From positions 4,132,501 through 4,196,500 of the forward strand of contig JAZARR010000221.1 in the NCBI GenBank assembly GCA_037389465.1: a DNA stretch of 64,000 bases, written 5' to 3'. Of this stretch, positions 7,150 to 53,700 are shown piece by piece. The position numbers and the translations under genes were made by a program. Numbering within the stretch: the first letter of the stretch is position 1; every line of letters begins with the position of its first letter. This stretch comes from Baylisascaris procyonis (taxonomy: Eukaryota; Nematoda; Chromadorea; Rhabditida; Ascarididae). Under the pieces are notes generated by a model that searched no databases, had not been told where the DNA came from, and saw nothing but the letters and a program-made list of their open reading frames with translations.

Positions 7150-7366
7150 CCTCAAAATATTTCAGCAATCACAATGAGTGGAGATGATAATAGCAGCAAT
7201 AATTCAATTACTTAAGGCATTATTACAGTGATAATGCTCATAGCCAATTGATAAGATCTATATTATTGAAATAAAAAATAGCTGGTAACGGTGAATGAAT
7301 GGAATTTAAAGGAATCAAGAACTTGTTAATATGCATTCTGCATGGAACATATCCGCATGAGTACGC

Positions 7367-7371
<5 letters not shown>

Positions 7372-7423
<52 letters not shown>
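7372..7423. repeat. (TA)n microsatellite
   Basis: About 52 bp of uninterrupted TA dinucleotides in the upstream region of gene 1. Confidence 0.97.
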
Positions 7424-7431
<8 letters not shown>

Positions 7432-8163
7432 GTCGTAACGAAGCAACGATTGGGACGAATCCATATGAAACGACGCATTGCTTGTAGACAGTTGCGAATA
7501 CCGAAACAATAAAATACTATAAGAATAGAGCTTACCTTGATATACGCACCACGTTGTGTTCAGTGCTTTGAATGAGAGGAGTGAGCACCACGAGACCTGA
7601 GTCACTTGGCGTTTCATTACTGGCAGATACCATTATGCGACTGTAACTTATCTAATATTACTATACTTAACTACAACAAACACGGTGTTATAACCGCAAA
7701 CGCAATCAGTAATCATCAAATCAATAATCAATAAAATATTAAATACGATAAACAGCAAGCAACAAAGATTTCTTCCATATATTTTTTAGCGGTAAGCAAT
7801 TTTTGCACACATAGAGATAATGCTAAAGTAGGCGTGCATAGTTTAGAAGTTACACGAGGGATGTCGGTTATTACATGTTAAGAAACATATAAGTTCAGAA
7901 TGCAATAAAGCCCATCAACTACCAAAAAATATGAGGAAATTTTATATACTATTAATGAGCACTGCAACTGAAAATGAACGGACTCGCAGTGCTGCCTGGA
8001 CTCGACTCAACCTTTCAGGCACCATTCTACCATCACAAAATCTGTTATGAATACCTAAAAAACTATGGTTACCAAGGAAACCTCAAGAGCTATGCAAGAA
8101 AAAAAAAACGCACGCAGTATGACTACGAATTGCAAATGGCACTGGGATGTTCTATTACCAATT

Positions 8164-8186: not shown

Positions 8187-8592
8187 TACACTATTGAGAA
8201 ATGGGTCCTGAATCGTCGTCTATTTTTATCTAAACCTAGGCATAATTGTGAGAGAGACTTAGCAGCCAATAACGATATATTCATTATAAAGATGTGATGA
8301 TGAAACCCAAGCATTAGCCTATTCAAAGAGGACGGAAAGGATGGAAGTGCATGTGCCAGCAATCGTTAATGCACTTTTACAATTGTGCATCTATCTCTGC
8401 GGGGGATACGCACCATGTTGCCCGAAAGACGACACTTAATCCACATCACATTCGAATACGCAACATTTTATCGGTTTCATCAACGCCTCAAAACGAATGT
8501 TATAGTGGCTATGCCTTTTTGTCTAATGTTCCGCTTGAAAGCTCGTGAAGGAACAAAGTTAAAGTTCACTGTAATTTGCATAAAAAAGGTGT

Positions 8593-8702
<110 letters not shown>

Positions 8703-11053
8703 GTACGCACCGTCTCACAATAGCTTCAGTAAAAATAGCATTAAATTCAGGTGATTCGCATAGATGAGCACTTGTGATTCCCTTTGGAACATTTTAATTT
8801 GGTCGCAACCTCAGTTAACGAAAGAAGAGCGAAAATATTAGATGGGAAAATCTTTTTTCACGGTTTCTTTCTCTTCGTTTTCTTCTACATTAGTTTTTTC
8901 TATCCGGTTGCCATCTTACCTCAACATATCACATATACCCCATCACCCAATGAGTTTAGCAGGCTGACAAAAGCAAGATAATCAATGAAACCATAGCAGA
9001 TCTTCTTTGAAACATGTTGCTCAGCGTTACGACTCTACATCGCTAAACGATCTCGAGTATCTAGTTTTGAGATTGTCCATCAAGACCATTCCTGGCGAAT
9101 GTTTATGATCTCAGCCGAAATAGAAATTGCGAAGAGAATGATGGCGATTAAAAAGCCAGTCAAGCCATTCGCCCCACCCCTAATTTTTTGGCTAATCGAG
9201 GCTCAGATTGATATAAACAAAGATTCGATCAGCCAGTGGAGAAAATTGATATATTCAGATGTTATAAAAGCTTTCAATAGGAAAGAACGAAAACATTAAG
9301 CCATTCGCCACATATAAGCACTACGACTATAAGCAATCGCGATACGCAACAAACATTAAATTCTCCAGAAAATTTTCAATTTTTGTGTGGTGCGTATGGA
9401 ATGCTTCAAAGCATCTTAAATCTTATAACAATATTACCGACAATTTCCGCGAAGTTAGCAAGGCAAGATCATCGATACAAATAGTAGAAGAACAAAAAAA
9501 CACGCTGAGTTTTCGAATGATGGGTAAATGACATCAAAGTACCTACATGCTATTTCACTAACTTCGATTCATAATGGACCTACAGGCTATATCACTACGA
9601 TCCACAATTCGATTTTATACTATTTACTTTAAATTTTCTTTTCGGCTTTTCGAGCTCAGATTATGTTTTTTGTTTTTCGAGTGTTACTTAGCGCTATCGA
9701 AGATATCATGTGAGGTTAGATGTGTCTTGGTACTGATAACGTCCAGAATATGAGATTTCCTGAGATTCATAAAATGCTCGCACTTACAATGGGTGCCGCT
9801 TATCTGAATTCTTTACTCCAAATAAACAAGTGATTAAGGAAAAGACAAAGAAACATCTTATTCCGACAACGTGTATAATCAATGCAGTAAAACGACTTGT
9901 TGAGAAAACAGCTACACAGAGAAAAGCTTGTCTCTGCAAATGGCTGAAAAGAAAAATTAAAATATTCAGGCTTGGTGTCGAAAAAAAAAACCACGGAAAG
10001 CATTCGAAACATCGAACTAGATATACAGTCAAGTCACAAATTACGGATTCAAATTTTCTCAGCAATACTTAAGTTTTAATTAATATTAGAAAAAATACTC
10101 CCTCAAATCGCTACAGTGGACACCTTCTCGCACGAAACAGTAACACTTGAAGGCTTTATTTTTAGATATCAAAAATCATCCAGATACATAAGATTTGAAG
10201 AATCCTGAAACAATGGAGTCGACGATTAGAAGGCCGATTTCTGGAAGGGAAACCGCAGACACTGCGCAAATTTCATCTGAGGTGATAAAACTTGGTCTGC
10301 ATTCGCCATTTGTTGAAATCGAGGTAGCCTCATCTTCAATGAAATTTGATCATAAAACACTGGACTCAATAATTACAATGTTGACTTCTTGAGAAAGTTG
10401 ATGCAGACGGTCTATGCACCTTCCAGGATGCTTTATTTGAGCTGAAATACTAATCTAGACAGGAACTAAGCGAACAGGAAAACTAATAAAAAGAAAAAAA
10501 TACCATTCAGAAAGGAAAATGGATCCGAGAGAAGAAACGTAGAAAGAAAAGTAGAGAAAATAGAGTCAAAAAGTAATATTTGACTGCATGCGTCCTGAAT
10601 TATAGCACAACACATATTCTGGAATGGGATGCAAATGGCAATGAAAATTGGATTTCCGCTGAATACGCGCTCACTCTTCTAAAAAATGATTGCACTTCCT
10701 CAGTCAGGATTAATGAAAAAATATCGATACCCTTTCCAGAGAAAAAAACGACAAACATAACCGGATGTGACTCTTTTTCTTATAGGAAATCTTCTGGCTT
10801 CCCCTTTAATGATTCACTCCTTCTCTATCAGATCATCAGCTATGTGAGAATATTTTCGACGTAAACAACTGCGAAATTATCACAAGGAAAGTAAAGAAAC
10901 GATTTAGCGTTCATTGTATATTTGTCTGGGGAATTATTTTCAGCATTTAAATTTTTGTTTCTTTTTTTTGAAGCAACTATGAATCATGCGGAAAAATTTA
11001 CACCGTCCCCTTAGAGTGAGGAATGGTTGAATGCCGCATCGGCCTTCGACTAA

Positions 11054-11093: not shown

Positions 11094-13090
11094 TTCCACG
11101 TCGGTCGTCGTTCACGTTTCACTGAGATGCCGAAAGGGGAACCACGATTCCGCACTGGAAATGTTCCCTCAGTAGAGATGCAAATTCATAAATGCGCATC
11201 ACATCTTTTCGTGCATCATAAAGACAGTGGTGCCCTTGAAACGATAAGCGCCAATTCAATTATAGAATTTCCACATCTGAACATGTTCCCTTTTCTCTGA
11301 TTCTCTCATTCGCAAGTTCATTACAGCACAGAGTGCCACAATGAGGCAAAATGAGGCCTAAATGACATTAGTATGGTGAATGCCTAAGTGAGTTGAAGCA
11401 CACAAAAACAACAACGTCGACTTGATCCAGACAAGAGAAAGACTGTAGATTTAAGGGCTGCAAAAGTGGGACATAATCCACTTCCCCTTGGTTGTCAAAA
11501 TTTGTGATCGAAAAAAAATGGAATAACTGAAATCAATGAATAAACCAAACACAGGACGAAGAGGTAACAAAACAATTTAATAATAATTTTCTTCTATTGC
11601 GTTCCAATGCTAATCGTCAATTTCTGGACGCGCATAAAAACATGGAAGTGAGATGAGATTCATGGCACCCAATGTTTTTGTCCATTTGGAGCCGAAAATC
11701 ACCAATGCTTTCTAATGTCAAAGTGTTTCACTTTGAAACAAAGAAGAATTGAAAGTACTTCAACCGTGCCCGAAAGTGAAAATGTCACATCACTCCTCTG
11801 ATCAATGCACCCCCTTTCCTTCCAAAGAAAAACTCTCATCAGAAAGGTTATTTTTCCCATTTCGGTGGGAAAATTTCTGCACATATTTATTTCATCGCTC
11901 AACTGTGAGCAAAATCATTCATTCCCAGAAATTCTTTGCGTGAATGGATGCAGTGACGCGATGCTAATGAAGCTGCTATAACTTTAGAATATGGTGATAG
12001 TAAAGTGGAAATTTGTCAATAATAAAAATCAGGTTTTGACTGAATAAATTCTGTGATATAACTTATTAACGAAGCATCTTTGTTGCATTGAGTGGATTGA
12101 ACTCGTATACTTATTGATCGTCTTAGTTAATAGGCGTCAAAAAAATTTTTCATTTTTTGATAGAAGGAGAAAATGGCGAAGATTTCAAAGTTTTTCTGCT
12201 CTAACCTAAAAGAACTTGGTAGCCGTATTCGAATTTTGCATATCGAGATGCAAGGAAAAGAAAACTAATGCTTTTAAGGGAGTCAAACTTGCATTTCCAA
12301 CCATTTAAACTTGAAAAATTCTACTCATATTTTGCAATTTCGCTGCTCAAGAGATGAATGAATATTCGCAACTCAAGTTTAAAGTCAACGATTTTTCCTG
12401 GAAATCCTTTTTCTGCAGCCTCAGGCGTTATTTTAGCGTTTCCTTGCCTGACCGGATGTCTATAGTTGCGTTATGAAGGAAATATGATAATAAATCGAAG
12501 AAATTAACCAAAAGAAATAAACGTGAAAAAAGTGATACTAAACAGAAAATATATTTTTTCTATTATTTAAGCCGTTAACGACAATAAAGACTATCAGCAA
12601 CTGTGGAAGGAAGTTGTGTTAAACAGTGCGCATTATGCAGGAAACGCCATTGTGAAGGTACAATAGGATGAACGATTGCAAAGTGAACGACAAAAAAACT
12701 TTTCCTTTCATAAAAGCCAACGAAGTGATTGTGAAGTGAATTTACAAATCGTACTTAGAACCTCGAATTTAGAAGGAAAGGGAACGATTTTGAAAAAAAA
12801 GAGAAAAAATTCACAGTTTGAATTTCTTTTTTGCAAAGAAGGTGTTTTTTCTTTGAATAGTACGTTTTCCAAATTTAGGATTTTATGAGAAAATTGGAGA
12901 GAAGTGTAAATTAGTGAAATTAAAGGACATGCGAAAGTATACGTACAATAAAATCACAGAAATTATATATTCATTTATAGAATCATAAAGTTCTGAAAAC
13001 TAGAGATTTATAAAAAAATATAATAAAACTACATGTATGTATTACAAAAAATTTCATCACCTTCATATATAGCGACATACCATTAATTCG

Positions 13091-13194
<104 letters not shown>

Positions 13195-13261
13195 GCTCGC
13201 TGCATGAGACTGCGGTGCAGTTGGCGGCAATTAAGAAACAAACAATGATTACCGAGCGCAC

Positions 13262-13350
13262 TCGCGCATAATTCGATCAGTTAGAGCATCTGGCCAGCAG
13301 CTAGAGCCTCCGCCAGTCAGCCAAAGACTTCTGGTTCGAGTCTCTGTGAT
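13262..13350 (+). repeat. tRNA-like remnant (decayed tRNA gene or SINE head)
   Basis: An A-box-like segment (TCGATCAGTTAGAGCATCTGG) is followed about 50 bp later by a B-box-like segment (TGGTTCGAGTC), the spacing of an internal RNA polymerase III promoter. CTGGC and GCCAG could form an anticodon-type stem with an oversized loop. The T-stem does not pair well and no good acceptor stem is seen, so it is unlikely to be a functional tRNA. Confidence 0.4.
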
Positions 13351-22497: not shown

Positions 22498-22901
22498 CAG
22501 GGCACAACGGGAAATCACAAACGGGCAACACAAACAGCGACGCGTGCACTCATCGCGCCCCAAACTGTGTGCCTTGTAAGTACGCGAGCCTGACAGCCAT
22601 CACCTATCGCGCACGCACGCAACACTCGGTTAATCATCTGCCGTTCATCGTCGGTTATATCGACGCATAATCTCTTCGTGACAGCTGTCATAACAGCCGA
22701 GAGGCAAAGCGATCAGATGCAATCTGGCCAATTTTAAATAAAACTTAGCATTTCAAACCCTTGACAAGTAACATTTTTACGTCATCCTAAAAGTTTCTCG
22801 AAAAACACCTTTTGTTTTGAAGGGAAGGTGAATTTTTTGGATGCTCTTTAACCTTTTGAAGATGAGTACTCCACCTTCTTAAGGAATTTTCATGGGAGGA
22901 G

Positions 22902-22903
<2 letters not shown>

Positions 22904-22961
<58 letters not shown>
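22904..22961. repeat. (TA)n microsatellite
   Basis: About 58 bp of TA dinucleotides. Confidence 0.97.
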
Positions 22962-22963
<2 letters not shown>

Positions 22964-24434
22964 TTGTCCTAATAATGTATTTTTACTTCAGAAAAACATG
23001 AAGAAACGGTGGAATAACAAATGTTTTTACTTCCGTAAGTTTTCACAAATGAGAGCACAGTTGATTAATACGGAAATATTTCAAGCCTTTTCAACTTCTT
23101 ATGCAGTTTGTCGGTATTGCAACTAATTTTCATAGCTATTACCGTTCATAAAATGGCCTAGTCGTACTAAGAGATTCCAACTTCATGATCTCGCTGAATA
23201 ATTTAGTTGAAGGCTTATATTGAACTGATTGAGTGATAGGAACAACAACGATGTGAGGAAGTAGTTAGCGGAAGAAATCGCTATGCTAATTTATGCTCAA
23301 AATCAGCTTATACCTTCTTCTAAGGTTGAACGATACGTGCTTATTGAATGCAAACACAGTGCTAGGTATCACTTAATAAATGTTCATGGTTTGATGTCCT
23401 CTGCAAACTGCCCCTCACTATTACTGCAGACATGTTCTTCCGTTCCTGCAGATATGAGGTCAATATGTGATAATAGTGAAATCCATTTTCCCTAGCCATA
23501 AACTGGAATCCTTGTGGGGATGCTTCGAGTATGGCATCATCGGACATCCGATTACAGTATCCGATCATAAGGTACTTGTTCTACGGAAACCTCAACAGAG
23601 AACAAAGAAGGTTTTGTCCCAGTCAAAACCCGATAGCTCCTTATGCACGGATCGTTCATGTCTTTTTGACTCTCACCAAATGGAGTTAGAATATGACATA
23701 TCGCAAAATGCACTATGACGATACAATCCTGCTAAAATAGCTTCTTTTTTAAAATATGCTCAGAGCATAAAACACAATCACCGCTGGTATGCTATTACAA
23801 AGTTGAAATAAATTTTTTAGAACTTATTCTTTTCCACATTCGAAATATATGAATTACATTTCAATGCATTTTTGCACTAATACATGAGACACGCAATAAA
23901 ATGATGGTACTGTATTTGTTTTTTAGATTTTGCATATTTTCTCATCTCTGAACAAAGCAGAGATGGGACCGATTTTTGACTATAGACATGAGGGAAGGGA
24001 AGAAGATGTGGCCATGTTGTATAATCATCGCATAATGATGCACCACCGAAATCGTCTGTACAATATATAACCTTGCTTGTATAATAATTGCTTAATGCAA
24101 AATCATGTATTTCCAATACTTATATGGTATACATCCACCACTTAATTGAACTCAATGCTATCGAGCAAATTTTTTGAGGTGAACGGATAGAAAAGATGCA
24201 GAGGTAATGATTTCCTCGATAATCTCCACTAAAAGTATGTGGAAAAATTGAAGTTTCATCAAAAACATACAAAATTTCTTTTAATTTGACCGAAATTGAT
24301 CTAGTGTATTTGTCCGAATTTCCTTAACTTCAAATATAAAACATCCCTGGTTTTTCTTTCTAGACTAATAGAATTGTCAATAATCCCACTCGTTTGCCTC
24401 CTTCTCCCCTCCACCGCACTCAAAAAGGATCACA

Positions 24435-27400
24435 TTATGAAACTGCACATATAGTTTTGTTTTTGAGTTTTTTCAAAAGCTTCGCTCTCTCTGCTGTCAT
24501 TTGTTCGTTGTTGTTTGCGTCACGTATTTCCAGAGCAGCGCATATTGCCTCAAGAAAAACCTTCAGCACGCCCGACTAAAAATGTCAACATGTTTGGAGA
24601 ATTTACATCACGCTTAATACTACAGGTTTCTGTCAGGGAAGTTAATCAATAAGATGTACTAGATCGATTCATATAGGTTTCTCGTGTAGAACTACTAATT
24701 CCTTCAGGGGCTCAGAAGGTTATAGAGAGGGCCAATGTGGAGTCAGGGATGATGGGGAAGAAAGCGAAAGTCAACGTAACTTTTCTCCTTATATCATAGA
24801 TAGGATGGATGAAGGTTCAAGCTGCCAAGGGATCAGTTGTCAAGTTGGCTAAGACTCTCGAATTTCCTTAGTACTAAAAATGGTTCCTACTGCTACTGTA
24901 AATTGTGCTAGGCTTCAAGATTTTATGTAGCCAAAATGTGCGTAGATTTTTCAATTAAAAAATGCGTGTTTGTTAACGCCACTGATGTTTAACCGACCTT
25001 ATCACGAAATGTGCATTCGACGAAGGAGTATGCACCAATTTTACGAGCCATAGCCTCACCCTCATCTTTAGTGACCAACTTGAAGAGTTCGAGTTGATCC
25101 TCTGGGTAAAGTTGTCGAGCTAACTTCTCGATTGTCTTCGGTTCATTGCGTAGGTCAATTTTTGTTGCCGCAAGTACTATGGGCACATTTTCTGGACACA
25201 AGCCCAATTTTATTTCATCTGCCCACTGTAAAGAATCCTGGTTTATGCTAATGAAAAATATTGAAGACGAATATGTTTCCAATAATCGGAATAGCTCACT
25301 CAGGTATATGATAGGAAAAGAGAAGGCATTTTGATTCGTTTTAACGTGATAGATGGCACCTTGGCTCTCTAATCGTTCAGGAATATAATGTTTCCTGATA
25401 TGCTATACTGTATTTGCCTTACTAAAATGCCTACACACCGACGGAAATCGATTTTTTGAATGCACACAGGTTCATGAGAGCAACAGTTATTTCACCATCA
25501 GAACTTGAAATCGAAACACAAACAATAATATCACTGAAAACAGAGGCTATAAAAATAGCTTGCAAGACGCACAGCTATTTTGCATATGTGCATAAGTTTA
25601 TATTAAGCACTGTTCATATAAGATTGTTCAACTTAATCGCGGCATGCGTTGAATTATAGGTATAAGTTTCATGCGGTGCACTGTCTATAATATAGTGCTC
25701 CTCTCAACGAAACTGGTTTTTGGTCACAAAATCTGCTCTTTTCAAATCAGTAATTAGCTGTCATTGAGGTTATCTAATTAGAGGGAGTCAACATCGCGGT
25801 TAAATTTCCACTTTTCCCTTTTTCCAACGGTTAATTCCAAATTCCAAAGTAAATTTCCAAAAAAAAAGGTAAACATGAATGACAAATTACCAAACTTTCA
25901 AAGAATGACGAAGAACTTAGGAGTACATCGAGCCTTTGGCGTGATTTTAAACCTTCCACGATCCATCGGATGGATTAACTTTTAGACAGAAAATATAGCG
26001 GTCTTAAAAGCCGTTTTTCACGGGAGTCCTGGCAGAGAAGGATGCTGCAGGAGGAATATAATTAAAAATTGGGAAAGCCGAGGCGTAGAAAAGAGGTGTA
26101 AGGAGTGAAGTGACTACTTATTTTGGGCACATGACATGTTCAGAGGAATAAGAAGGTAATGAGCGTAGCTAGACAGTGGCGCTACCCTCAACTGTAACCT
26201 ATCAAACCTTTGGTGTGATGAAGCAGGACATCAGCACAACAAATTATTACCCGATTTTCGGCGTTTCTGAATGAATTACGGCATCCGACCGAATAGCAAA
26301 TAACAATCACATGAACTCCAACGTAAGTCAGTTGACGAAGACGATCATATTCTTCCTGAAGTAAAAGTTACGAGATCAACAAAACATTGATATACTGAAG
26401 AGTAAAAATTACCTGCATCATTCTAAGTTCAAGTCCTATGCGATGATCAGATCTTTGATTCAAGACGAGAATTTGCGAGGACAAGAATATCATAGTGACC
26501 GTAGAACGTTCAGGAAGTTAAAGTACCGAAAAAAAAAGAAACTACGAATCTATAATAAGATCTCAACTGCTAAAAAAACACATAATAATGTTGCAGCCTG
26601 AATCATCAGAAACACAGTAGTTTGGCAGTTAATACAGATGAGAAGAACCTCATCAATGATTCTGCGGGGTGGAGGCGAGACGAATGAAAAATCCTGAATT
26701 TTTACACAGCATTATTACACTGAGCATCTTCTATGCATCCGTTGCTTAACTAGAGCCACGTAGAAACAATCTTTTTCATTTCTTCTCAGAAACGAAGCGC
26801 TTTCATCGATAACCTCAACAAGATGTCCTTAAATATTCCCTCACTACCACTCTAAATCAAAGCAGTATCATACGAAGAACAAAGTTTTAAATTTCTTTCT
26901 AAAAATCCACTATTTTACTCTCAAAGAAATATGCATAAAAAAATGAAAGCTAGCATGTTTCATACTTCATTTTTTAGTTTACTTGAGAGGAATGCTCACC
27001 TTTCCAGGTGAATCATATATTTCCATGAAATGTGGGTAAGCAACTGGATGTGATAATTGACAACCATACACATCAATCACCTGGATATAGTTGAATTCAA
27101 TCAAATATATCAATGAAGTGTTTGTTTCAAAGTTTACTGCGAAACGCGATTAGTCTATGATAACGAAATTAGCTTACTGTTTCTAAAAATCGGCAAAACT
27201 GCTGTGAATTTCAATGACTGTAGCATCATTTTTGGATCATACGAGGTTACAATACCTCAAGGTTCTTAATCGAGAGGGGAGACGACAGGTGAAGGTTATT
27301 CGAGGGACCCGAAGTATGTCTTTCCGGTACTGATGGAAGTATGTGGCCTATAGAACGAGGCGCTCAAATGGAGAATGCGTGGAATTCTAAGGTTTTGAAG

Positions 27401-29991
27401 GAGAGGAGAGGTCAAAGGTCACAGGGAAGGTAAAACTATGGAGATTTTCGCGGATGCATTCATATCTTCAATGGTTCTGAGTGAATAGAAAGAGAAATTG
27501 GAGCGTTAATTTTCCCTTGAATATTTAAACGAGTTTGGCTGGAATGGAAAAGCGGATGGGGAAGAGGAAGCGGAAGTAACCCTTCTTAAGGGATCATTAG
27601 AGGTACTAGAAAAATTGAGTGCAAACTAGCTGATTTCAATTTCTTTCTTTTTCGCAGAACTATATAGAGAACTATATTTTACTCATTCAAGACAAGGAAT
27701 TGCAATTTTTTTTTTCAAAAAACGAAACAGAAGCGGATATAGTAATGTGGTTATTTCAGCAAGCAACGTCCAAACCAATGATTTCTATATTATTATTGCC
27801 CAATATCATATAGACCCATCCTTATGTAGTGGTCATATTCAATATAAGAATTTCTATTAATGCACTAACAATCTAACAAGAGCAACCAATTTCTTATAGT
27901 AATCGTATTATGCAACTTCCTATAGTTCGTTGCGTTATACACTGAAGCGAGAAAAGTATTGGCGCAATGATGTATTGACTGCTTCTTTATCATACCGCCA
28001 AATATTTTTTTCGCTTTCATTTCGGTTTGAAATTGTACGGAGGTCATTTCGATTTTAAATAGGAGAGTTTGATTTTTTCGACGTTGAACAGGATAGCGGT
28101 AACCATATGCACCCACAATTCAGTGCATCAAAGCTTGTAGGACTCCATACGATTATTGATTGATAGCATTGAGGTTTTTGGGATATTGGGGTAAAATTAG
28201 GTTAATACTAGGTCGAACTGACCTAATATTCCAAACAAGCAATAATAACTGTTGCTGATAGTCGTTAGCCAACAGATATAGGTTATTCTGCCAAAACTAC
28301 AGAATTCGTAACTATTCAATAATAAATGGATCGTTTCTTGACCCGATCAGTGATAACATATCTGTATTATTTAAAAATGCTTGATGGACTTATACTGTCG
28401 AATTACTATTAAGTGCTATAAAATGATACTTCTACCAAAGGTGTAAAAAATCACCTGTATATGGGAGGTATTGGTGGATTAAGATTAGCCAAAACGTTCC
28501 CCCTCAAAACTCTGCTATTCTGACTTGCGGAATTCTCATTCTCGAGTTCGGCAATCATTGGCCGCTGACCGAGATGGAAGAAGTTATGAACTTGTACATC
28601 GGTGTTAAACAAAGCTAAAGTACTTAATCTTATTTCCTCATCCTTAGCTGTTCTAGGCATTCTAAGTTTTTTTCTTTTCATCGATACTATTATTAACCTA
28701 TGTGGTTAAATGAAATATGCGTCATCCAGCTGGTGCCTTATTTATGAATTCATATTTGCCTTTCCACCTTCTCTCCCATTCCCTATTCGAAGGAGGGTAC
28801 TATTAATAAACGTAGATCCGAAACAAATTGAGTAAATAAGTTAATAAATTAAAAGATGCGCTCTTCGCTTCATCTCCCCTCATTCCGTCTATAAGCATCT
28901 TTTCAGTGTTGCTTTTCTCTTGAACGAAATTCTGACTACGATCCTATTCCATCCTTAAGGAACTTCATTGTTCCAATGGTGACTTTGTTTGTGGAAGTTT
29001 TAAAGACACTATATTTTCATAAGAATAAACGAACTGTTGGCTCATAATCAGTCAAAGGTGACGAGCATCCGATAGCCGTTTTGATCATTGTTGTCTTTCC
29101 AACACCTGCATCACCCACAACAACACATTTTATCTTAAGGACTGGCTGAAAAAAAAAATCAATTATGAAAGCAACAAGATTAGCATGTTTTGATTAGCAC
29201 GTTGGATGAGAACATCACAATGAGTGCGAATGAAATATCGAAGTGGGATTAAGTGCATTTTTGGAAGCTAGCCTACTAGTTATGAACTTTATTGTAGTTC
29301 GCCAGTGAATTTCTGTAAATTGGGAGAGATATGTTGGAAGCGCATTTAATGTTGGTGACAGATGTGACCTTCTTCTTGCTATGGCTTTTATTGTCGTTAC
29401 TTAAACAATCGAAAAAAAAAGAATTCCAAAAAACACTCTATTTCAGAAAACCTGCAAAAAAAGAACACGTAACGCATCTGATGTGAGCGGATTCTTAATG
29501 TACCTGCAATATAGCCTTAGGCATTGGGAATTTCACGAAAATTGTGCAAAATTATAAGAAAAATATGATTTTTCGTTAAGACATCTTATTGATACATTAA
29601 CCGAAACCTGAAAATCCGACAAGCAAGCCGTTGGCTCAGCATTTAATAACATTGGTGCGACGCTAAAATCAAATGCAGAAAAAAGACAGGTATTTGTGGA
29701 TTATTTCAAAACTCTCTTTAAAAGTGGCAATGACACTTTGTCAGTCCTTTCATCAAATATCAGAGAAGCTGTTGATGATATACACGTCGCGTTGCAATTC
29801 CCACTTAAAGCTATAAGAAATAGAACAATCAAATTGTAAAAATGCAACACCGTAACCTGATCGACAATGTTTCTGTTCACATCCGTACGGGTACTATCTT
29901 CATTTGCACCTGTACCGATATTGCCACTACCTTTATCACTGGACCCAACCTCATTAGTTTTATTCTTCTGGACACTCGGCCCTGAAGGCAT
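24435..29991 (-). CDS. Rho-family small GTPase with substituted catalytic residues and CaaX box
   Basis: Six exons: 29991-29857, 29145-29035, 27080-27000, 26355-26251, 25225-24998, 24575-24435; GT-AG borders, every intron phase 0, 266 residues. Residues 1-45 are a polar Ser/Asn/Gly-rich extension. The G domain follows: P-loop GDAGVGKT (56-63), switch I ending DYEPT (Thr82 matches Rac Thr35), switch II DSPGKEEYDRLR (105-116), TKID base-recognition motif (165-168), ECTFRDK in place of the usual ECSA. The C-terminus is basic and ends CAVS (263-266), a CaaX box whose final Ser favours farnesylation, so membrane attachment is expected. Relative to Rac1, Gly12 is Ala58, Ala59 is Pro107 and Gln61 is Lys109, which should strongly reduce GTP hydrolysis (inference from Ras/Rnd knowledge). 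Likely partners are Rho effectors of actin and polarity. It resembles atypical nematode Cdc42/RhoU-like members; orthology is not settled. The donor after exon 2 (ACA|gttcgt) is weak. Confidence 0.92.
28451..28681 (-). other. Open frame inside intron 2 of the Rho-like gene, unassigned
   Basis: A 76-codon frame on the same strand has coding-like composition (AKDEEIRLSTLALFN, AELENENSASQNSR) but no clear role. Including it in the GTPase would split the G domain after switch I, so it is not part of the main transcript. It may be chance or an exon of a nested gene. Confidence 0.15.
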
Positions 29992-32900
29992 ACGTCACTA
30001 CCAATACTTTTAGTACTTCGAATGGGCGAATAGAGAAACGCCCACACAGACAAGTATAAACAAGGAAACTGTTTCTGCCGTTGACATTCGACGAGGAGTT
30101 TTTTCTCCGAGCATATATGTAAATTTTTTGAAGATATTTGAAGATATTCCGAAATTCAGAAACTTGCATCGATAAATGTTATAATGTTGCTTGAAAGTTC
30201 CCTTACTAAACGGTTCGCCTTGGAACCTAAAGCCCTGCCCAACCTCCACCAAAGCTAACTGACTCTAAACGGATCTAACCCGCACTTTTCAAACCTGACC
30301 AGAAACTCTTCCTCCAAGAAGCATTCAAGCACATAAGATGAAATCAGGTCGCCGCAATGTTATTCTACAAGAAGCGCAAATAATCTCCAACCTACTGTTT
30401 CTTTCTATTATTTTCTCAAAAGTAAAACGGAACTTCTCATTTGCCTGGTAGATTTTATTTAGTGACAGCATGCAACATTGTTGCAATATCCTGAACAACC
30501 TGGAATGATAAAAGTCATAAGTTAGGTGTTTCGAAAATTGCGTTGCATCATATCACTGATAAAATGCAAGGGATGTGACCCGCCTGTATTTATTACAACT
30601 GATAATCATTCAAATGAAACGTTGATCATATAAAAACAAAGAACCGAACATGAATATGACTATCATATCAGAGAAATAAACATACTGCTGGATACAAATA
30701 TAAACGAAGCCTAGATCCGTACCATCCTTTAAATTCCGTTCTTATTGCATAAACTTAGCGGATGATCGATTTCATGACTCTCCATCCTCTTCACATATCA
30801 CCTTTTCTGCCACGAAACCTCGACCTCATATCCACCTGAAATAAAATAGCACATATGAAAACGTTGCATTAATTTCTCTTATTGATAAACTATGAGATAA
30901 GTGGCAAGCACCAATTTTCTTGTGAAGTGAGTTTGAGCCCGAACATCTCGAACTTCAGCAGCTCAGATTCTTTTACACACCAATATTCTAAGCTTCAAGA
31001 AGCTCCAAGGCAACACCCATCAAGATATAACAATTAATGTAAAGAGGATCCTAGAGGCCATACCAGTAATCGTTTAAAGCTTCAGTCACTGCAACTGAGA
31101 TCAGTAAATCTAGCTAGAACTTAATGCTCAGCTGACCACAAAAATTCTGCGACATGACTAAATAAACGAAAGAATTTCTTCTGGAATTAAAAACGTTTGA
31201 TTTTCTAACAGTTTTAATACAACGATTATATAAAATTATGAACGGGCGCATTGATACATATTTGTTATAGAAAAGGAAGTTATCAACATAAGTATTCTTA
31301 ATTTACACTTAACATCCTCAGAAACTAACACAAAAATTTTCACAAAAACAACTGCATTATGTATTTTCACCGTGCACGTCAAATGAACAAGAAAACCTTA
31401 CAAAAATCTTTGTTATAATGTTACTTCTTATGTCTCTGGACTGCTAAAAATTCATGGTAATTGATTCATGGTAACACTCTTCTTTGAAAGATCGACCGAA
31501 ATTCACTTTGAAATTTAAATGGCTGTGTTGCTGTTGGTACGAAGATTAAAATAAGAAAACGAGAACCGAGGTTAACAACTGCAGAAAAAAACAGCCAAGT
31601 TTTTTCGACCCGCCAACTTATCTTTCAATAAAATTTTTAGACATTAACTGATTTTTGCCTCTGCAACCAATTATGTGCATAGATCACAAAGATCAGTGAA
31701 AAAAAAAAGCGAGCAAAGCAAAACCAACCAAAGATCTTTTGCAATCAGAGAAGTTAGATAGCAATACAAAGCATCGATGCGGCACAGAACCATCGGTAGC
31801 ATTGATGCAATCCTTCGCTGAACGCCGTTCCTTTTGCACACAATCCGATTCCTGAAACAAAAAAAATCATTCAAAATGGAGGTGGATATGCCTGTGATGC
31901 TAATAGTCAATTATATGAAGCAATTTCTACCCCAATATTTGATTCTCAATTCCAGTAACGCAAAACAACAACGATTCGCCATTGGATAAGAGCCTGGGTA
32001 GCAAATGCTGAGCTAAAGTCCTTCTCCTCCTTAGTCCTCCTCCATCTACATCCAATGCTTTCCTCCCCGAAAAGTTATCGAATATTTCTGTGACTCTACC
32101 TCCGCAACCTTGTGGGAAATTCTTCACACCAAACCCTGTTCAAAATTCGATTTGAGTGGTTGATTTGAACGGAAGAATAGCTACTAAGTATTCTTTCGTG
32201 ATTCGCTGTACCCGCTACTGAGCTATAAAAGTGATTGATTGGCTCTTATCGCATCGACTTATCGCAAGAAATCCCTCCCTGCTTTTACTCCCCGCCTCTT
32301 AACTCTCCCTCTTTTAAGCTAGCATAGTTGACATGAAATCTGTCAACTAGTGAAATAAAAATATTAACACGAAAGAAAAGGATGTGAAACCGTTAAACTT
32401 GTGGATGAAGGGCACTGCGATGTCTCCAACTACAGGTTTCGTGCTTTTGATGACCGCGTCATGGAATGTTCAACCCTCTCAACAGCAAAATGAACAACGA
32501 TGCGAGCAGACTGGCTTCCCCGAAATTAAACAGGGGACAGGTAAGTGCTACATGGACAGGATTATTGACGGAAATACCCTATGGAGGAAAACAAGCAGTC
32601 GGAACTGAACAGTATCGGTACGATTATTCAAAGACTCACGAGAGCAAGGGTATGTTATGATTTAGAATCGGATTGCTTATCCAATATTTATCTATTCTAG
32701 AACCTCTTTCACAATTTAAAAATTATTCGGCTGTTTAAAAAGGAAGAGAAATAAGTTTTTTTGTCAACTTTTCGGTAGAAGTTCCAGAAAGATTCCAAGA
32801 AAACTGAAAACACAAAAATTCCACAAAATCGAAACATAAAAAAGTGATAACCTACACTTTATAATCCTGGTGAAAGAATATAAAAAAAAAAACATGGCGC

Positions 32901-35403
32901 TGTGTACGAAAATACTAGTGCTATGATGTAGAATCGGACTTCTAGCAAATAATAAGAGATGCAATCACCTTAATGCAACGTTTCAGTTCCTGTCGCAGTC
33001 GGTCACATGACCTGCCACTCGATTGCTGTGCTGCTACCGCTTCATCTGCGAATTCCTTTTGTGATGCTCTCGAATGGATCGATGACATAAACTGTAACAA
33101 TAGAAACTATCATGACCAGTAGTGAGGATATCATAGTCACCCAGGCTACAGAACTCACATCATTTAGGACAGGACATACGAACGTTTCGATCCTCAAAGC
33201 GAGAAGGGAAGCGTAAGCTATTTCAAAGTTTCAACTTCGGAACGTTATAAGCTGACGAAAAATAAGCAGCGAAGGTTAGTTCAATACGCACTCTTCGAAA
33301 AATAATACTTCACTTTTGCGGGAAAAATTCCATAACGTTTATCTACGGAACAGATTCACTGTCTATTCAAGACCGCATCCAAAAATCTCACTTATGCCAG
33401 CAATCGGCCGGACTTGCAAATTTGCATATGCAAATTCTCCATCGGTTTCAGCTCTTGCAAAGTGCTAGGGACCGATCGGTTAGATCAAAAATGAGTAACG
33501 ATGCAGAACACGCTCAATATACGCCACTGTTATACTTTCTGGCACAGAAGTTGAAACTGTCAAACAGACCAGTGTGCATCTAATGAAAAGGTATAGCGAT
33601 AAGGCATTTAATATTGGCAAGCAAAGCCTTGAAAAAGAATTCATTTCATTACTTTCGCCATTATGAAATCAAATATTTCAAGAACTGACCCTTCCTACTC
33701 CCAAGACGAAAAAACGTCCCTAAGCAGGCTGCACACGATATATGCGCTTTTGTGTTTCAGCTTCTCAAGCTCATCATTTGCTCAAGCTCCAAAAATGCGT
33801 TTTAATTTAAAATAAATTAGTTGTGGAAATCCGCTATGGAAGGATCGTTTGTGGCCACTGCTCGACCGAGCGCACGATAAAAATTTGCATACGTAAATTA
33901 CCTACCGTGTTCATATGCAAAAATGTCTCTAAGACATAACCAGTCAAATAAAACGTCACACATAAATTACGTCTATTAAAACGCAATAGCGCACCTTGTG
34001 TATTTTATGAGCTGACACTGTTAAACCGATGGGTAGATTTGTGATAAGATGTTTTGCACCTTACTCATTACCAAATCTCCCTAGCGCTGATAGTAAAGAA
34101 AACAATATTAAGGTTCACAGGTACAGGTACGCTATAACGATGTACTCGACCACGCAAATATTCGTGCACTTAAGTTGCTACAATCTCGGCTATTGGTGAA
34201 TTTGCTACTGTGAAAGCAACAGCTCATACAGGACTGCTGTCATTCGATGATCGACAGGAGGTAGCGCTATGTCTTCGGCGTTAAGAAGGAGGATGAGGGG
34301 GAAGGTGGGGCTACGCTGGTCACGATCCAATAGCTTCATGCATTAGATTCCACAATTTAATGCACGAAGAACTTGATGTAGCACCTCGTTCTCACAAAAC
34401 TTCACTGAAACCCATTCATATCTTTGTGTTGCCGTAGCTCGCAATTGTGCTGTGCGCGAATTGTTGCAATTTGAAATGATAACAATGTCAAGTGCAGAGA
34501 TATACCGAGAAAAAACTACCTCGCCGAAACCTCGAGCTCTAGCGGAGGCAGACGACTGGTACTAGCAGAATGTCAAAAACTGAAGCGATGGCTTTTGCAC
34601 AACATCGTAGAGTATCAGATCATCACCAGAATGAAAGATGTTCTTTTTGAGAAGCTTCCACTAAAATGTTTCTTTCAGAAAGGAAATTCATCCCTGCTGT
34701 TTCTCATCGATGTGCTTTAAGGCCGATTTCCTTGTCCCATCCAAAAAATCCCTTTTTAACGCCAATGAAACGGTGGTTAGTGCATCGCCGAAAACGTCGG
34801 TGCATATTTATTCACCGGGCACAAAATAACGCGCTGCAGAATAATGTCCTATAAAACTCGTTCGGGCAATTGAATTGTCTAAGTGGGAAATTAGCATAAA
34901 ACAACGTCCATTAAAGGAACTAATTCAACGCTCAAAATAGTTTAGCTCAAGGAGGAAGCCGTAAAATACGTTCAGTACAACTCATCATTGATGACCACCA
35001 ACCTTTGTTTACGTATAGCCATAGATAGAATTACCAACAAAACTCCAGCCATCAACTATTCATCAACCATTATTTGAATCAAGCTGCATATGGATGATTA
35101 AGCTGTAGCATATTCCACACTGCCTAACCCTAATCCTTGGATAAAGACAGACAATTGAAATTCCATGAAACACTATGCAGAGACAAAGCAATCTTTGTGA
35201 CAGCAAATCACTGAAGTAGAAAGTAGTGCATTCAGTTAAAATAACATGAGTGGTAAAACAAGCGCACAAGACTGCCACCATATGTGAATTGGCATTACGT
35301 GAGCCTTTACATACTTCCTGCAGTTCCAGAACGATGAGTTTACCTTGACATGTTGCAGCGGTAATGCAATGTTTTTCGGCCAAGATGGAGGAAAAACATC
35401 AAA

Positions 35404-37454: not shown

Positions 37455-37758
37455 CTATCCCTTCCCTCTCTTAGCCCTTTTTAATTCGAGGAATACAAAC
37501 CAGCGCAACACTATTCGTGTTCAATATCGATGAGATCAAGCCACCATTTGCAACGCAAATTAACATGGTATTACACCTGCGGCGGAAATGACTGTTGATA
37601 CAGTACCTTGTCTTGCTGCAATGAAGTTTCGAGTGTGTGCTACCAACTTGACATGTTGGCGATTGAGATGGCTAATGAGAATCCTTCATCATAATTTTCT
37701 TTGTTTTGATGACACGCTATGAAGTGATGTCGTAGAAACGAACATTTCGAACAGTGGA

Positions 37759-37918
<160 letters not shown>

Positions 37919-40511
37919 CAGCTATTTCATAATATCAGTATAAATTCGGCAATATTATTCAGCTCGTCGTCGTTAACTACGGACTTAGATGCACTTCGCT
38001 TCCTGCCATCTATGTGTACAGATCACCTCAGCGCGGGCTTTCTTCTCAATGATGCAAGTGACCATTGGCCAATGACGTGTTTGTGGTCTGGTAACGAAAA
38101 AAATGCCACCTGTGCACCAGGCCCAGCGATTGATGCACCTATCAGTTATATTGCACCTATCAAATGGAGACAACTTGTCCGTGTGAGCATATATCTTACG
38201 CATTTAACTGTTCACATCAACAGATTTCTAAAATGGTTAGCTTGTTAGAACACTATAACAGCCAAAGTAAGAAAAAAACAACGGAAAGTGTATTATGCCT
38301 TAAGAGGTATGCGATTTTGCAATAGACTTTCGATAACTGTGAAAAATAGCTGAAAATTAATGGAGATATGTTTTCAAAAATTTTCATGAAATAAGAATGC
38401 AAATAATTTCTTTAATATTAATAGTTCGGTTCAAAATAAGGTGCAAATCTATTCTAAACCCGTAGTTATTTGAAACGTTTCATATTTCATTGAGATAATT
38501 TATTTCCGTCCCGGTTTACGAGCACCAAACAGGCATAGCAAATGCATTATAGGCACAGATTGACTATTACTGTAGTGATATTTTGTGAACTATAAAAGAA
38601 TATTATAAAGATGTTTTCCGTGGGAGGTTGTTATAATGAGAAGAGGTTTTTTTTTGGTTTAATTAACGATATTTGGTCAGTCGGCACCACTGAGCCAATA
38701 GCTTCAATAATAAGGTAAGCTGCATATATTTACATTAAACTACATATAGCTCATCATGAACAATTTCAACAAACAGCTATTATTGCAATCATGCAAATAT
38801 TATTGCATATAAAGCACAGAGTTACTTACTATTCTATAAACGTACTGGTATTACTGCAAACACAAAGGTGTATTATTGCAAGTTATCAAATGTGATTTGA
38901 TAAAAGCTATAAGCACTTGAAAGCCGTTGAGAAAATGAAATTTCCGATGTTACTCTCGCAATATTTGATCTAATAAAATCGATAGCTTTTATTGCATTCT
39001 TCTCGATTGGAGCCGTATGATATGGAACGCAGATCAAACTTTTATACCTCGTTTATATATGCGAACATATAATATTGCTTGAATTTGGACTTTGCAGAAA
39101 TTACGCATAGAAATCGGATGTTCATCGGAGCAAATTGAAAAAGCCAACACGGTTGGTTGATATTTATATTTTCAATTCTATGAAATGGCATATGGTAACA
39201 AAAGTGCTTGAGATTAGGCTGTGAACCAACATAAACGTTTTCGGAATCATGTATTTATGAGAAATTTGTAGCGAAGGCGACATATTCTACGGAGCCATAA
39301 GAACGGGAAGAAGGGGGGGGAGAGATGGTGATCAAGGAAAACTAGAGTCGTGAGCATCGTGGGAACTATTTTCACCCCGTCTATATAAGGTAAATATTTC
39401 GGTACAAAGCGTGTTATTGCACATGTCAACGACAATGCGACAGGTTTTTAAAACAACCTTCGACGCTGTTTATGCGTCTGTCGTACGAATCATCATGATC
39501 CAAGTGTGCTATAAATTCCTCGAAGACTAAGACTGAACCAACAACCCTTGATTAAGGACAAAATTTGAGCAGAAATGAAACGACGTATTCGTTGCTTAAG
39601 GTGTGCCCTTTATTAGTGGGCATTGCAAATCTAGACATCTGTAAATCATTTATCGCTTAATAAAATTGGACGATGTGGGAGGGCGCTGCTTTCAATTATG
39701 AGACAAATTTGTGGACGAAGGAATAGTTTGAGGCAATTTTTATGAGATCAGACGTTGAATGAGGTAATCGATGCTAATTTAAAAATTATGTGTAACAATT
39801 AAATGAAACATGCGAAATTTTGAAAAGTACCTTTATAAGGAAATTACGATGTTACTAATTGATATTATATTATTGCACAGATAAATTCTTTCATTGATTT
39901 TCTACTGATATTTCGTAAACAAATCTTTCAACCAAAACTTTTAATGTTTACTGACGATATATAGTCATTAATGAATAGATAATGCAAAGATTTCGCAAGA
40001 GGAGGACAAACCGTGAATATCAATAAAACAATGTTCTTTAATGGCATTCCTTGTGGAGAAAGCTGTCTGATACTGACGCAGGAAACTTCTGGTGCAATAA
40101 TGTGCTCGCACTTTCACCCCAAAATGGTACAGTGCTGCAGTTGGACCGCTTTTTGAAAATCGTGATGACACCGATTATATTGCAATCACAGGACCTGATG
40201 CCTTCCCCTACCCCAACCCAAACACACAGCCTTCCATGGCAGGCACGGGAACTTATTCCCAGTTGCAGTGAGCAATCTCCAGTGCATGTGGCATGAAATG
40301 GGTTTGTCAGCACGCAACATGAGATGCAGAGAAATGTGCGCAATATTACAGAGCAGAGAAAAACACATTTCACTGAACTAAAGCGAAAGATGAGTCGCTG
40401 CGAGGTCGTTTCCCACATATATGCTTCTACTTTTATGCACGCTTGAAAAGGGTTATAGAGATCTATTTATTAATTTAAGAGTCTTCCACAGCTGAGGCCC
40501 CTAGTTTCTTT

Positions 40512-50400: not shown

Positions 50401-50630
50401 TAAAATAGGCTGCGAATTTCACACGTTCTTCTCGGGCTGGAAAAACTATGTGACTTGTCCTTCCAAATATCTAAGTCACTCTATTTGCCACGCGTATCAA
50501 ATCTGCATATTTTTTAGAGTTCATTCAAGCTGTGGCTTGCTTAGCTCTTTGGCCGAGCGAATATAGCGGACGAATACGGTGAAAGCAACAAGATGGCGAT
50601 TCTCTCAGTTTGTTACCTAACGAGCTAATG

Positions 50631-50631
<1 letters not shown>

Positions 50632-50728
<97 letters not shown>
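50632..50728. repeat. (TA)n microsatellite
   Basis: About 96 bp of TA dinucleotides. Confidence 0.97.
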
Positions 50729-53700
50729 TTATTACTCAGAACTCCGTGAGCACCTTCCGTTTTTGCCGGCGTCCTGCTATTGGCGAATATGAACATATGA
50801 AAAGCAAGCTTTTAACGTTCATAATTGGCGAATTTTCATGCAGTGAACGCCGGAAATGTTTTGTGACATTATTTTTAAAAGAACCTAGGTGTCCTTTCTA
50901 CCTTCGAGCAAAGGGAAGCATAAGCTATTTTAATCCTCTTTAAGGGAACCAATAGCATCTTTTGCGGCAACAAATCATCACAAGTACTTACGTGCATCAT
51001 TCGATAAGAGGAACTGTCATTGCCAGATGTTGGAACCTATTCCGTCCTTAAATCAACAAAAAATACGAACAAATCTCTCTGAGAGTGCTTCTTAGCTAGT
51101 TACATTAATTTGTTAGCATCGCTGTTTGCATTCAATTCGTTTCATTCCTTTACAACCGGAAAGAATTCAGATAGGATTAATTTCATAGATACTTTTTCAT
51201 ACAATTTCATACAGATAGGATTTTCACTTCATTTGCAATCGTCATGCTTGCGACGATAGATTCAGAAAAGTTTCGCTTACCTTTTCGCCTATTTACGTTT
51301 ATTTAAGTCGACAACTTTTCTATTGCAATCAACGATGTTTGTCTTCAAAAAAATTAAAAGAATTAGGCGCTATATTCTAGATTGCCACTGTTCCAAATAT
51401 TTTGTTTCTATTTCGCTTTTTCCTTTTTCATCCATCCCCCTGGGGATTTAGAGAATCATCATAGGTGATGAAAGTCGCAAAGGCACGTTCTTTTGACAAA
51501 ATCATTAATGCACGTCTCAAATTTTCTCACTGTTAGTGCCGAAGTAAGGGGTGCAATTACGTATAAATATAGAATTACTAATATCGCGAGTGCCGTTGTT
51601 GGTGTTTTTGCTCTGCACTTGTCCAGTGAAATAGTAACTCTAACTCATGACTAGACGACAATTTCAATTCAGGCAACTGTCTCCAACAAGTACATTACGG
51701 TTGCATTTTCAGACCTGTTAAGCTCGATATTATGATTTTCGTCGAATGTTTGCTACGCTACTCGTGTATTCTAAAAGTAAAATTTAAAATGTGGAAAATC
51801 TGCATTATTTTGAAGAATTATTACATTGCATCCCAACACTTCCATATAGCATTCTAGATAACAATGGTGTATTGACAGTTTCTGCTCTCAGTTTTGCACA
51901 AAATGGAGTAAATTTCCCCACTAAACCTAATTAATGCCTTACGCTTTTCATGTTGCTAGGTGGGGAATTTTCTTGACAACACAATATTTGCCCCGTTACC
52001 CAATTTTCGGCAATGCATTTCTCATAGATTCGCTTTGTAGCGCTTTCGAATGAGCAAGGAAGATGGCTGCCCAACATATCCCTTCAGTGCTCAACAAAGT
52101 GCAGCAGGCGTGGCGGTAGAGGTAGCAATTGTTGGCTACATATAAATCTCGCTTATTTTGTCACCCTAGAGTGCCTTAGGGAATGCTATTTGAATTGGCT
52201 TCGAGGGTGTGTCAATGTAAATAGGTAAGGTCAATGTCAGCTTATCGAACCTTTGCCTTCGTTTCCTTAAATGAGAACGACAATCAAATAAACTACGTAA
52301 AGTGTCTATTTGCTATCTGGGCGGTGTTAAAATTTCTTTTTACATTACCATCTGGAAGTCTTTGAGGACCATAAAGGATATAAAGTTGAAAAAATAACAT
52401 AAAAATTTCTCAACAGTGCGTTTTTTCTCAGCATAAATGATGAAAATTTGAAAAAAAAAAAACTTGATGCAGGTGATTCCTTCTAAAGTATGTCAGATTT
52501 TAAAATATTTTCTATTCATTTTCCTTCCTTAACCTCCAAAGTCTATTCTTTTGCCTCTGAAGCCTACCATTCCCTTTATATGGGGGCGTTCTAATGTTGT
52601 CTATGTTTAATACTGATCGTTTTATCTATGTACACTTAGAGAACTAATCGAATTAATTTTTTACATTTTTTTTTTCTTTTTCTCTAATCAATACATTAGA
52701 AAAAAAACATCTTATCTGTTAAAACTGTGGTGCATTTTGTGTTTACAAAACGTATTATGACAACGATTTGTGCATATGTGTATATATATATGCTTGTGTC
52801 TATCCATCGGATAGTTTCAATATGGGGCCACTGACGTTAAAATTATAAAATTTGGTGCATATAGTGTACACCATAAAATAGCCTCATACATCGTCTTTCA
52901 TTTTTCTCTTTTATTCTAAATTCTAGAAGAAATTTCGAGATATTGACATCGAGAAAAATTTTTATATACATTTTGCAGCGATCGGTTCTTCCTTCCGCGC
53001 CGATCACATCACGAAAATATTGAAATTTGATGGGAAATTTATGCGAGCTGTCTTGTTGATTAAATTATGAATGCATTATTTTGCATAATTTTTGCTTCGC
53101 TTGGACATACGATAGATTCGGTGGACATACAGTAGCAGTCTTTGGCAGCTAGTCAGCTGATCAAATTGCAAAAAATCCATAAAGTATGTCTCTTCCACTG
53201 TTTGAGGAATCATTTAGATACATATCGCCTGCATTTTTATACGTGATTTTAACTGTGAATTTTCAGACCGCAAATTTGGCATGTAATCATGCGCTTCTCG
53301 AAATTTTGACATTTTTTGCTGCATATTGCATCCTCGTTTATTATTTGAAAAATATTTTGAGCGGTCTGATAGTGGGCATGTCGTCGTGGGTAATAACTTT
53401 AAATACAGAACTTTCATACGGCAGTTGGCATCGTTTATGATTCCAGGAGTTGAAGCACCTAAGGGATGCCAAATGGAGGTATTTGAAGCACCTTGTAATG
53501 CTATCAAGCCTTTTCTATTGTAAATTTATAAGCCCGCAAATAATATATGCTAAGTACTCTGTAAATTTTTGAAAAAAAAAGGGTCACATATGCTTTCCCT
53601 GCCAATATGTATTTCAAAATATACGCGATATTGAAAAGCTGTCACGAGATAGTGATTTTGAACAATGTTGCTGGGGAATATCCATTGGATTTTCCTTAAC

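Follow-up and report, generated by a model that had tools for sequence, protein, structure and literature searches.

The 64,000-nucleotide stretch of Baylisascaris procyonis DNA analyzed here, hereafter the window (contig JAZARR010000221.1, positions 4,132,501 to 4,196,500), carries on its minus strand a gene for an atypical Rho-family GTPase that probably lacks a normal GDP/GTP cycle. The gene runs from an ATG at 29991 to a TAA at 24435, the coordinates claimed for it earlier. It comprises six exons encoding 266 residues, and its five introns are all GT-AG and in phase 0. Spliced alignment of the Ascaris suum protein F1LB57 (P0001), which is 87% identical to the window protein, reproduces this model and supports every boundary, which bears out the predicted length of 266 residues. 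A 254-amino-acid model in which exon 4 started at 25294 is wrong, as the A. suum protein places this exon at 26355-26251. The donor of exon 2 (GTTCGTTT) is weak, and the end of this exon matches the A. suum protein. F1L-type A. suum entries presumably derive from transcript sequences, which does not in itself establish expression. Given the open frame, the five GT-AG introns and the conserved orthologues described below, a pseudogene is unlikely. The exons and motifs are listed here; residues are numbered along the window protein for the exons, and as in Cdc42/Ras for single positions throughout.

29857..29991, minus strand, exon 1: ATG and N-terminal extension, residues 1-45
29035..29145, minus strand, exon 2: residues 46-82, P-loop and switch I through Thr35
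29092..29115, minus strand, P-loop GDAGVGKT (Ala12, Gly13)
29044..29067, minus strand, loop CSSPLTDY, without an aromatic residue before Tyr32; Cdc42 has Phe28 there
27000..27080, minus strand, exon 3: residues 83-109, remainder of switch I through DSPGK
27000..27014, minus strand, start of switch II DSPGK (Pro59, Lys61)
26251..26355, minus strand, exon 4: residues 110-144 (EEYDRLRQLTY...NAENR), based on the A. suum protein
24998..25225, minus strand, exon 5: residues 145-220, Rho insert, TKID and ECTFR
25154..25165, minus strand, G4 motif TKID, intact
25004..25018, minus strand, G5 motif ECTFR in place of ECSAL, with Phe at the position of Cdc42 Ala159 and RhoA Ala161
24435..24575, minus strand, exon 6: residues 221-266 and the stop codon TAA
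24438..24449, minus strand, CaaX box CAVS

The window protein matches the Pfam Ras family (1.1e-27) and Cdc42 in the PDB (7.6e-34), which rules out a chance match of the P-loop. It possesses the G1, G3, and G4 nucleotide motifs, a Rho insert and a C-terminal CaaX box, as expected for a member of the Rho family. The insert, located between strand 5 and helix 4, aligns across that of Cdc42 and is eight residues longer in ascarids. An AlphaFold2 model, made on the A. suum orthologue rather than on the window protein and silent about catalysis, has a Rho fold, with template modeling (TM) scores by target length of about 0.9 to RhoA, Rac1, and Cdc42 chains. Its mean predicted local distance difference test (pLDDT) value is 79.8, with values below 50 in the N-terminal extension, at residues 1-4, 6-23, and 29-43.

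The original prediction described a Rho-family GTPase locked in the GTP state by three substitutions, Gly12 to Ala, Ala59 to Pro, and Gln61 to Lys. All three are confirmed in the window protein by GDAGVGKT and DSPGK. The change at position 12 is accompanied by Ala13 to Gly, and the Lys61 codon, AAG, is the final codon ahead of the exon 3 donor. The effector Thr and the CaaX box, which had been described as retained, are indeed present, as Thr35 in the effector loop YEPTV and as the C-terminal CAVS. In this loop, Phe37 is replaced by Ile and Asn39 by Val; Tyr32, Val36, Asp38, and Tyr40 are also found, as are Asp57 and Gly60 in the G3 region. The base-recognition motif, likewise said to be kept, is so only in part: TKxD is intact as TKID, but in G5 SAL has become TFR. 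In addition, aligned position 28 is a Ser and not a Phe.

Orthologues were found by protein search in A. suum, Parascaris univalens (P0002), Onchocerca ochengi (P0006), Dirofilaria immitis (P0087, with a shorter isoform P0088), Setaria digitata (P0089), and Thelazia callipaeda (P0091). They span two infraorders of the Spirurina, the Ascaridomorpha (Ascaris) and the Spiruromorpha (Onchocerca, Thelazia). Together with the window protein they form a single clade supported at 100/100 in two trees of 34 and 25 rows (Thelazia being included in the former only), in which the window protein branches outside the Ascaris-Parascaris pair (92/85 and 97/86, respectively). Among the 120 matches listed of 1336, many of them unnamed, none was named as Caenorhabditis elegans or another nematode outside the Spirurina; the search covers only proteins sharing exact words, so this does not show absence outside the Spirurina.

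The counts that follow include the window protein and take the two Dirofilaria isoforms as one. Gly12 is lost in all five readable proteins, being replaced by Ala in the three ascarids and by Ser in Onchocerca and Dirofilaria; the position is unreadable in Setaria, which lacks that exon, and in Thelazia, whose model is broken there. Gln61 is lost in 7/7, and Lys takes its place in six of these. Position 59 varies: Pro is found in the window protein, A. suum, Onchocerca, and Setaria, Ser in Dirofilaria and Thelazia, and Ala in Parascaris. The G5 Ala is replaced in every protein (Phe in three, Cys in two, Ser in two), as is Phe28 (Ser in three, Ile in three, Ala in one). Each of the seven thus has three or four of the sites 12, 59, 61, and G5 changed. 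A CaaX box is present in five of the six proteins with a readable C-terminus (CAVS in the window, CAIS, CALL, CFIS, and CTVC elsewhere); the Thelazia model stops early. At position 40, the Spiruromorpha proteins have Glu or Asp. The expected conservation of the three residues in orthologues therefore holds for the loss of Gly12 and Gln61 and fails at position 59. Ala/Pro/Lys is not a fixed signature, and as position 59 is not fixed, what had been proposed as a triple change is better described as a conserved double change at positions 12 and 61.

We compared these sites with a background of 191 further Rho-type proteins, which remain of the 199 fetched once the seven orthologue rows and the fragment P0003 are set aside; this set is biased to query-like proteins and contains many RhoG. 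Gly12 is kept in 181 (with one gap), Ala59 in 185, and Gln61 in 187. The G5 Ala is likewise kept in 181, and no background protein has Phe at this position. At the four sites, 173 proteins have no change, 12 have one, 2 have two, 3 have three, and a single protein has all four. The latter, the metagenomic protein P0076 (Ser12, Thr59, Asn61, Ser159), differs from the window clade in keeping Phe28, and it is not closer to the window protein (69/187 matches) than to Cdc42 (79/187). Among those with three changes, a Cdc42-like protein of the scorpion Centruroides vittatus (P0079) has Glu12, Asp59, and Lys61 but retains Phe28 and the G5 Ala, and P0082 is a short piece with a poorly aligning end. 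The pattern of changes in this sequence set is thus rare, yet not confined to the window clade.

The functional meaning of these positions is documented in other Rho proteins. Human Rho proteins retain Gly12 and Gln61 except for Rnd and RhoH, which are hence GTPase deficient (PMC8305018). Conversely, the fast-cycling atypical Rho proteins carry the classical residues at positions 12, 59, and 61 (PMC9029563) and their hydrolysis is intact (PMC6321241). F28L in Rac1 and Cdc42 is listed as fast cycling (PMC9029563; PMC6321241), as is RhoA A161P (table in PMC9029563), that is, at the two other positions altered in the window clade. Judged by its residues, the window protein appears to combine both human atypical classes, the GTPase deficient and the fast exchanging.

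Our preferred reading, to which we assign a probability of roughly 0.65, is that the product of this gene is an atypical Rho protein with a lipid anchor and without a normal GDP/GTP cycle, which most likely descends from Cdc42 and is conserved in both Ascaridomorpha and Spiruromorpha. With the phosphate-, Mg-, and guanine-binding residues of G1, G3, and G4 retained, and Gly12 and Gln61, which hydrolysis and Rho GTPase-activating proteins (RhoGAPs) need, replaced wherever they can be read in orthologues, the protein would bind GTP, hydrolyze it very slowly or not at all, and ignore RhoGAPs. The loosened grip at G5 and position 28 would permit reloading with GTP without a guanine nucleotide exchange factor (GEF). 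Its steady state would be GTP bound, signaling constitutively from membranes, and its output would depend on transcription, prenylation, phosphorylation, or turnover. As both kinds of change are present, the GTP-bound state could be reached by slow hydrolysis together with easy reloading, and the protein might be insensitive to GEFs as well. The predicted lock in the GTP state is in this respect supported by the conserved loss of Gly12 and Gln61, but the changes at G5 and position 28 indicate that the route to it may include fast exchange. Effectors are probably unlike those of Cdc42, because Asn39 is changed, Ile is present at position 37 in the window protein and an acidic residue at position 40 in the Spiruromorpha. 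A bolder form of this reading, to which we give somewhat less than even odds, is that a Spirurina Rho lineage of Cdc42 ancestry has merged the two atypical classes, such that its state neither requires GAPs or GEFs nor can be set by them; the nucleotide would then be a structural cofactor, and the sole switch would be the amount of protein, its prenylation, or splicing of the CaaX exon.

Several observations weigh against the preferred reading. A residue other than Gly at position 12 is tolerated in cycling Rab proteins. Setaria has Met rather than Lys at position 61, and the normal Ala59 of Parascaris indicates that one of the three sites claimed to control hydrolysis is free to vary. In Onchocerca and Dirofilaria, a Phe lies one residue past aligned position 28 and may substitute for Phe28; Setaria, Thelazia, and the ascarids have no such neighboring Phe. 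The predicted C-terminus of the Parascaris protein lacks a CaaX box. In the trees, the forks that place the window clade, and on which a Cdc42 ancestry would depend, are weak, with bootstrap values of 27 and 47%. Finally, C. elegans CHW-1, the RhoU/RhoV orthologue, resembles the window protein in its Ala12 and its proposed partly constitutive activity (PMC4514874; PMC5982818), and the effects of this residue are mixed. CHW-1, with Ala12 and Gln61, disturbs migration when expressed in distal tip cells, as a partly active protein would; this effect is lost with A18G and stronger with A18V or Q69L (PMC4514874), which speaks for the preferred reading. In axon guidance, however, the wild type, A18V, and A18G forms cause similar defects (24, 23, and 29%, respectively), and ectopic lamellipodia arise from A18V only (PMC5982818). 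As the axon defects are alike across the three forms, Ala12 alone is not cleanly activating. The window gene is not itself CHW-1, an identity excluded by Lys61, by the presence of a CaaX box, and by a separate RhoU-like locus in the genome. CHW-1 keeps Gln61 (PMC4514874) and has neither a CaaX nor a CXX motif (PMC5982818), unlike the window protein with its Lys61 and CAVS. The CHW-1 papers are the nearest literature: at title level, we found none describing this nematode family. In the excerpted text of an Ascaris reproductive-tissue transcriptome study, the Rho gene is not mentioned (PMC9768952).

Alternatively, the protein could be mainly a fast-exchange Rho like RhoU and RhoV, with residual hydrolysis and a loose grip on the base, that still cycles. 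The absence of the G5 Ala and of Phe28 in all seven proteins fits this description, but the fast-exchange class retains the classical residues at the catalytic sites, whereas the loss of Gln61 is conserved here; we consider this explanation unlikely. Quite improbable, in our view, is a scaffold or pseudo-GTPase that binds nucleotide poorly, in which the P-loop and switch II would have drifted after an enzymatic role was lost. It would account for the alteration of multiple nucleotide-site positions together. Yet GxxxxGKT, DxxG, Thr35, and TKxD are intact wherever full-length models cover them, and with G1, G3, G4, and Thr35 intact nucleotide binding is expected. Moreover, the window and A. suum proteins are identical in the P-loop (8/8) and switch II (17/17), and match at 180/191 positions of the G domain and at 28/45 of the N-terminal extension. 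Conservation is thus higher in the G domain than in the extension, and the odd nucleotide site gives the impression of being maintained rather than drifting.

The preferred reading places the origin of the gene near Cdc42, and the other Rho genes of the same genome bear on this point. A scan of the assembly (272.8 Mb, 293 contigs) led us to fetch 11 other Rho loci in 12 stretches; this count excludes the window and five weaker loci at C144:5144618, C144:5179127, C80:625098, C227:1954124, and C74:1484415 and 1483146. They include CDC-42 (L001), with canonical residues, a Rac gene (L002), a second Rac-like gene (L003) that is perhaps MIG-2, and the RhoA-type genes L004, L005, and L007, plus the divergent L006. 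L005 and L007 are nearly identical; in the stretch fetched for L005, no first exon was found. A separate CHW-1/RhoU-like gene (L010/L011) encodes GDAAVGKT and DTAGQ and groups with RHOU (99/95 and 100/100 in the 34- and 25-row trees). Three further loci, for which the models are homology guided without independent confirmation, are divergent: L008 (Glu61), L009 (Ser12 and Ser at G5), and L012 (Asp61 with Gly12). Noncanonical residues at positions 12, 61, or G5 are thus encoded by four of the 11 loci in addition to the window gene. The genome thus has CDC-42 and a CHW-1/RhoU-like gene apart from the window gene, and the conserved loss of Gly12 and Gln61, with the nucleotide-binding residues retained and a CaaX box in five of six proteins, is what one would expect of a maintained hydrolysis-deficient Rho.

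The domain of the window gene is interrupted by introns before Cdc42 residues 36, 62, 97, and 163, all in phase 0. Among the 11 loci, the introns before 97 and 163 are shared, at the same codon boundary and in the same phase, by CDC-42 and L012 only; the one before 62 recurs in L003, L009, and L010/L011. The chance of sharing at least two of four introns with a three-intron gene is about 1.7e-4 for a single comparison, uncorrected for the 11 loci. L012, which has the introns of CDC-42, may be the CRP-1 orthologue. Both genes differ from the window gene at the nucleotide site, with the canonical residues of CDC-42 and the Asp61 and Gly12 of L012. From the shared introns and the best PDB match, which is Cdc42, Cdc42 ancestry is most likely.

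The 34-row tree included seven of the 191 background proteins plus human CDC42 (the domain of P0018), all hand-picked. The 25-row tree lacks RHOH, RHOD, L008, L009, the Acanthamoeba, Mycena, and Komagataella proteins, L005, and Thelazia, which are long, redundant, or partial. Forcing the window clade with CDC42, L001, L012, and the scorpion protein gave a p value in the approximately unbiased test (p-AU) of 0.26, so that this grouping was not rejected, and with L012 alone of 0.40 (25 rows). Grouping it with RHOH gave 0.35 (34 rows). An association with RHOU and CHW-1 was not formally rejected (0.056 and 0.072 with 34 and 25 rows, respectively).

The tree tests also concern the vertebrate Rnd1-3 proteins (RhoE), with which the window protein shares the Rho fold, the CaaX box, the replacement of Gly12, Ala59, and Gln61, and an expected constitutive GTP state. 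The residues themselves differ, being Ser/Ser/Ser in RND3 (PDB 2v55) and Val/Ser/Ser in RND1 (2cls) as opposed to Ala/Pro/Lys in the window protein; for RHOE, PMC9029563 gives Asp at position 61 where the PDB sequence shows Ser. RND3 also retains the G5 Ala and Phe28, and RND1 the G5 Ala with Tyr at position 28. The gene could nonetheless be a nematode Rnd orthologue, belonging to an ancestral GTPase-deficient branch shared with vertebrates: the identical three sites are changed, and Dirofilaria has Ser12 and Ser59 as does human RND3. Forcing the clade with Rnd1 and Rnd3 cost 19.2 log units in the 34-row tree, where it was borderline and not formally rejected (p-AU 0.052), and 22.7 in the 25-row tree, where it was rejected (p-AU 0.0078), although the latter is not an independent test because its row set was chosen after the 34-row tree. 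Grouping with the whole RhoA/Rnd assemblage was not rejected (p-AU 0.15, 25 rows). Both trees, however, nest Rnd within the RhoA group and leave the window clade out of it. The window gene shares two introns with CDC-42 but none with the RhoA-type loci of the genome, no Rnd protein is among the 60 PDB matches listed, which Cdc42 leads, and a review passage truncated at its beginning states that the group, apparently Rnd, is absent in worms and flies (PMC4319381). On this evidence, an Rnd orthologue is highly improbable. The independent origin suggested by the original prediction is favored by the introns shared with CDC-42 and by the 25-row test, and held back by the values of 0.052 and 0.15; an origin separate from Rnd is likely but not proven. 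The gene is real and conserved, and it is probably an independent non-cycling Rho.

Directly upstream of the Rho gene, about 800 bases from its ATG, a PET191/COA5 gene lies on the same strand (30791-33030). It is identified by a spliced-alignment score of 130, where nine control searches reached 44.4 at the highest, and by a match to Pfam PF10203 (8e-24).

~33030-32969, minus strand, PET191/COA5 exon
~31851-31729, minus strand, PET191/COA5 exon
~30835-30800, minus strand, PET191/COA5 exon, stop codon near 30791

In Parascaris, the Rho entry is named "Cytochrome c oxidase assembly factor 5," which suggests an operon or merged gene models across both genes; an operon of the two is possible. On the other side of the Rho gene, a frame at 24177-24239 (minus strand) matches the alternative, CaaX-less C-terminus of the Parascaris protein at 14 of 21 residues. 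The window has ATA where the A. suum Val codon, as inferred without Ascaris or Parascaris DNA, would yield a GT donor. A nonprenylated isoform may exist elsewhere only, or may be a prediction error. Five open reading frames elsewhere in the window have no Pfam match at an E value of 0.01. TA-type simple repeats translate as IY runs in the frames 7318-7632, 8370-8720, 12986-13276, 22866-23126, 37736-38245, and 50629-50940.

Among Rho proteins that do not cycle, vertebrate Rnd and RhoH are the best-known cases. If our preferred reading is true, a separate origin in parasitic nematodes, maintained in Ascaris-type and filarial worms alike, would make the loss of the GTPase cycle a recurrent evolutionary outcome. 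The family would also offer a natural experiment on the joint alteration of residues for hydrolysis and for base contact, and a worm signaling protein that is a distant relative of the human Rho proteins in this comparison. Such an always-on switch would probably be controlled by its amount or location and not by the usual off-switch proteins.

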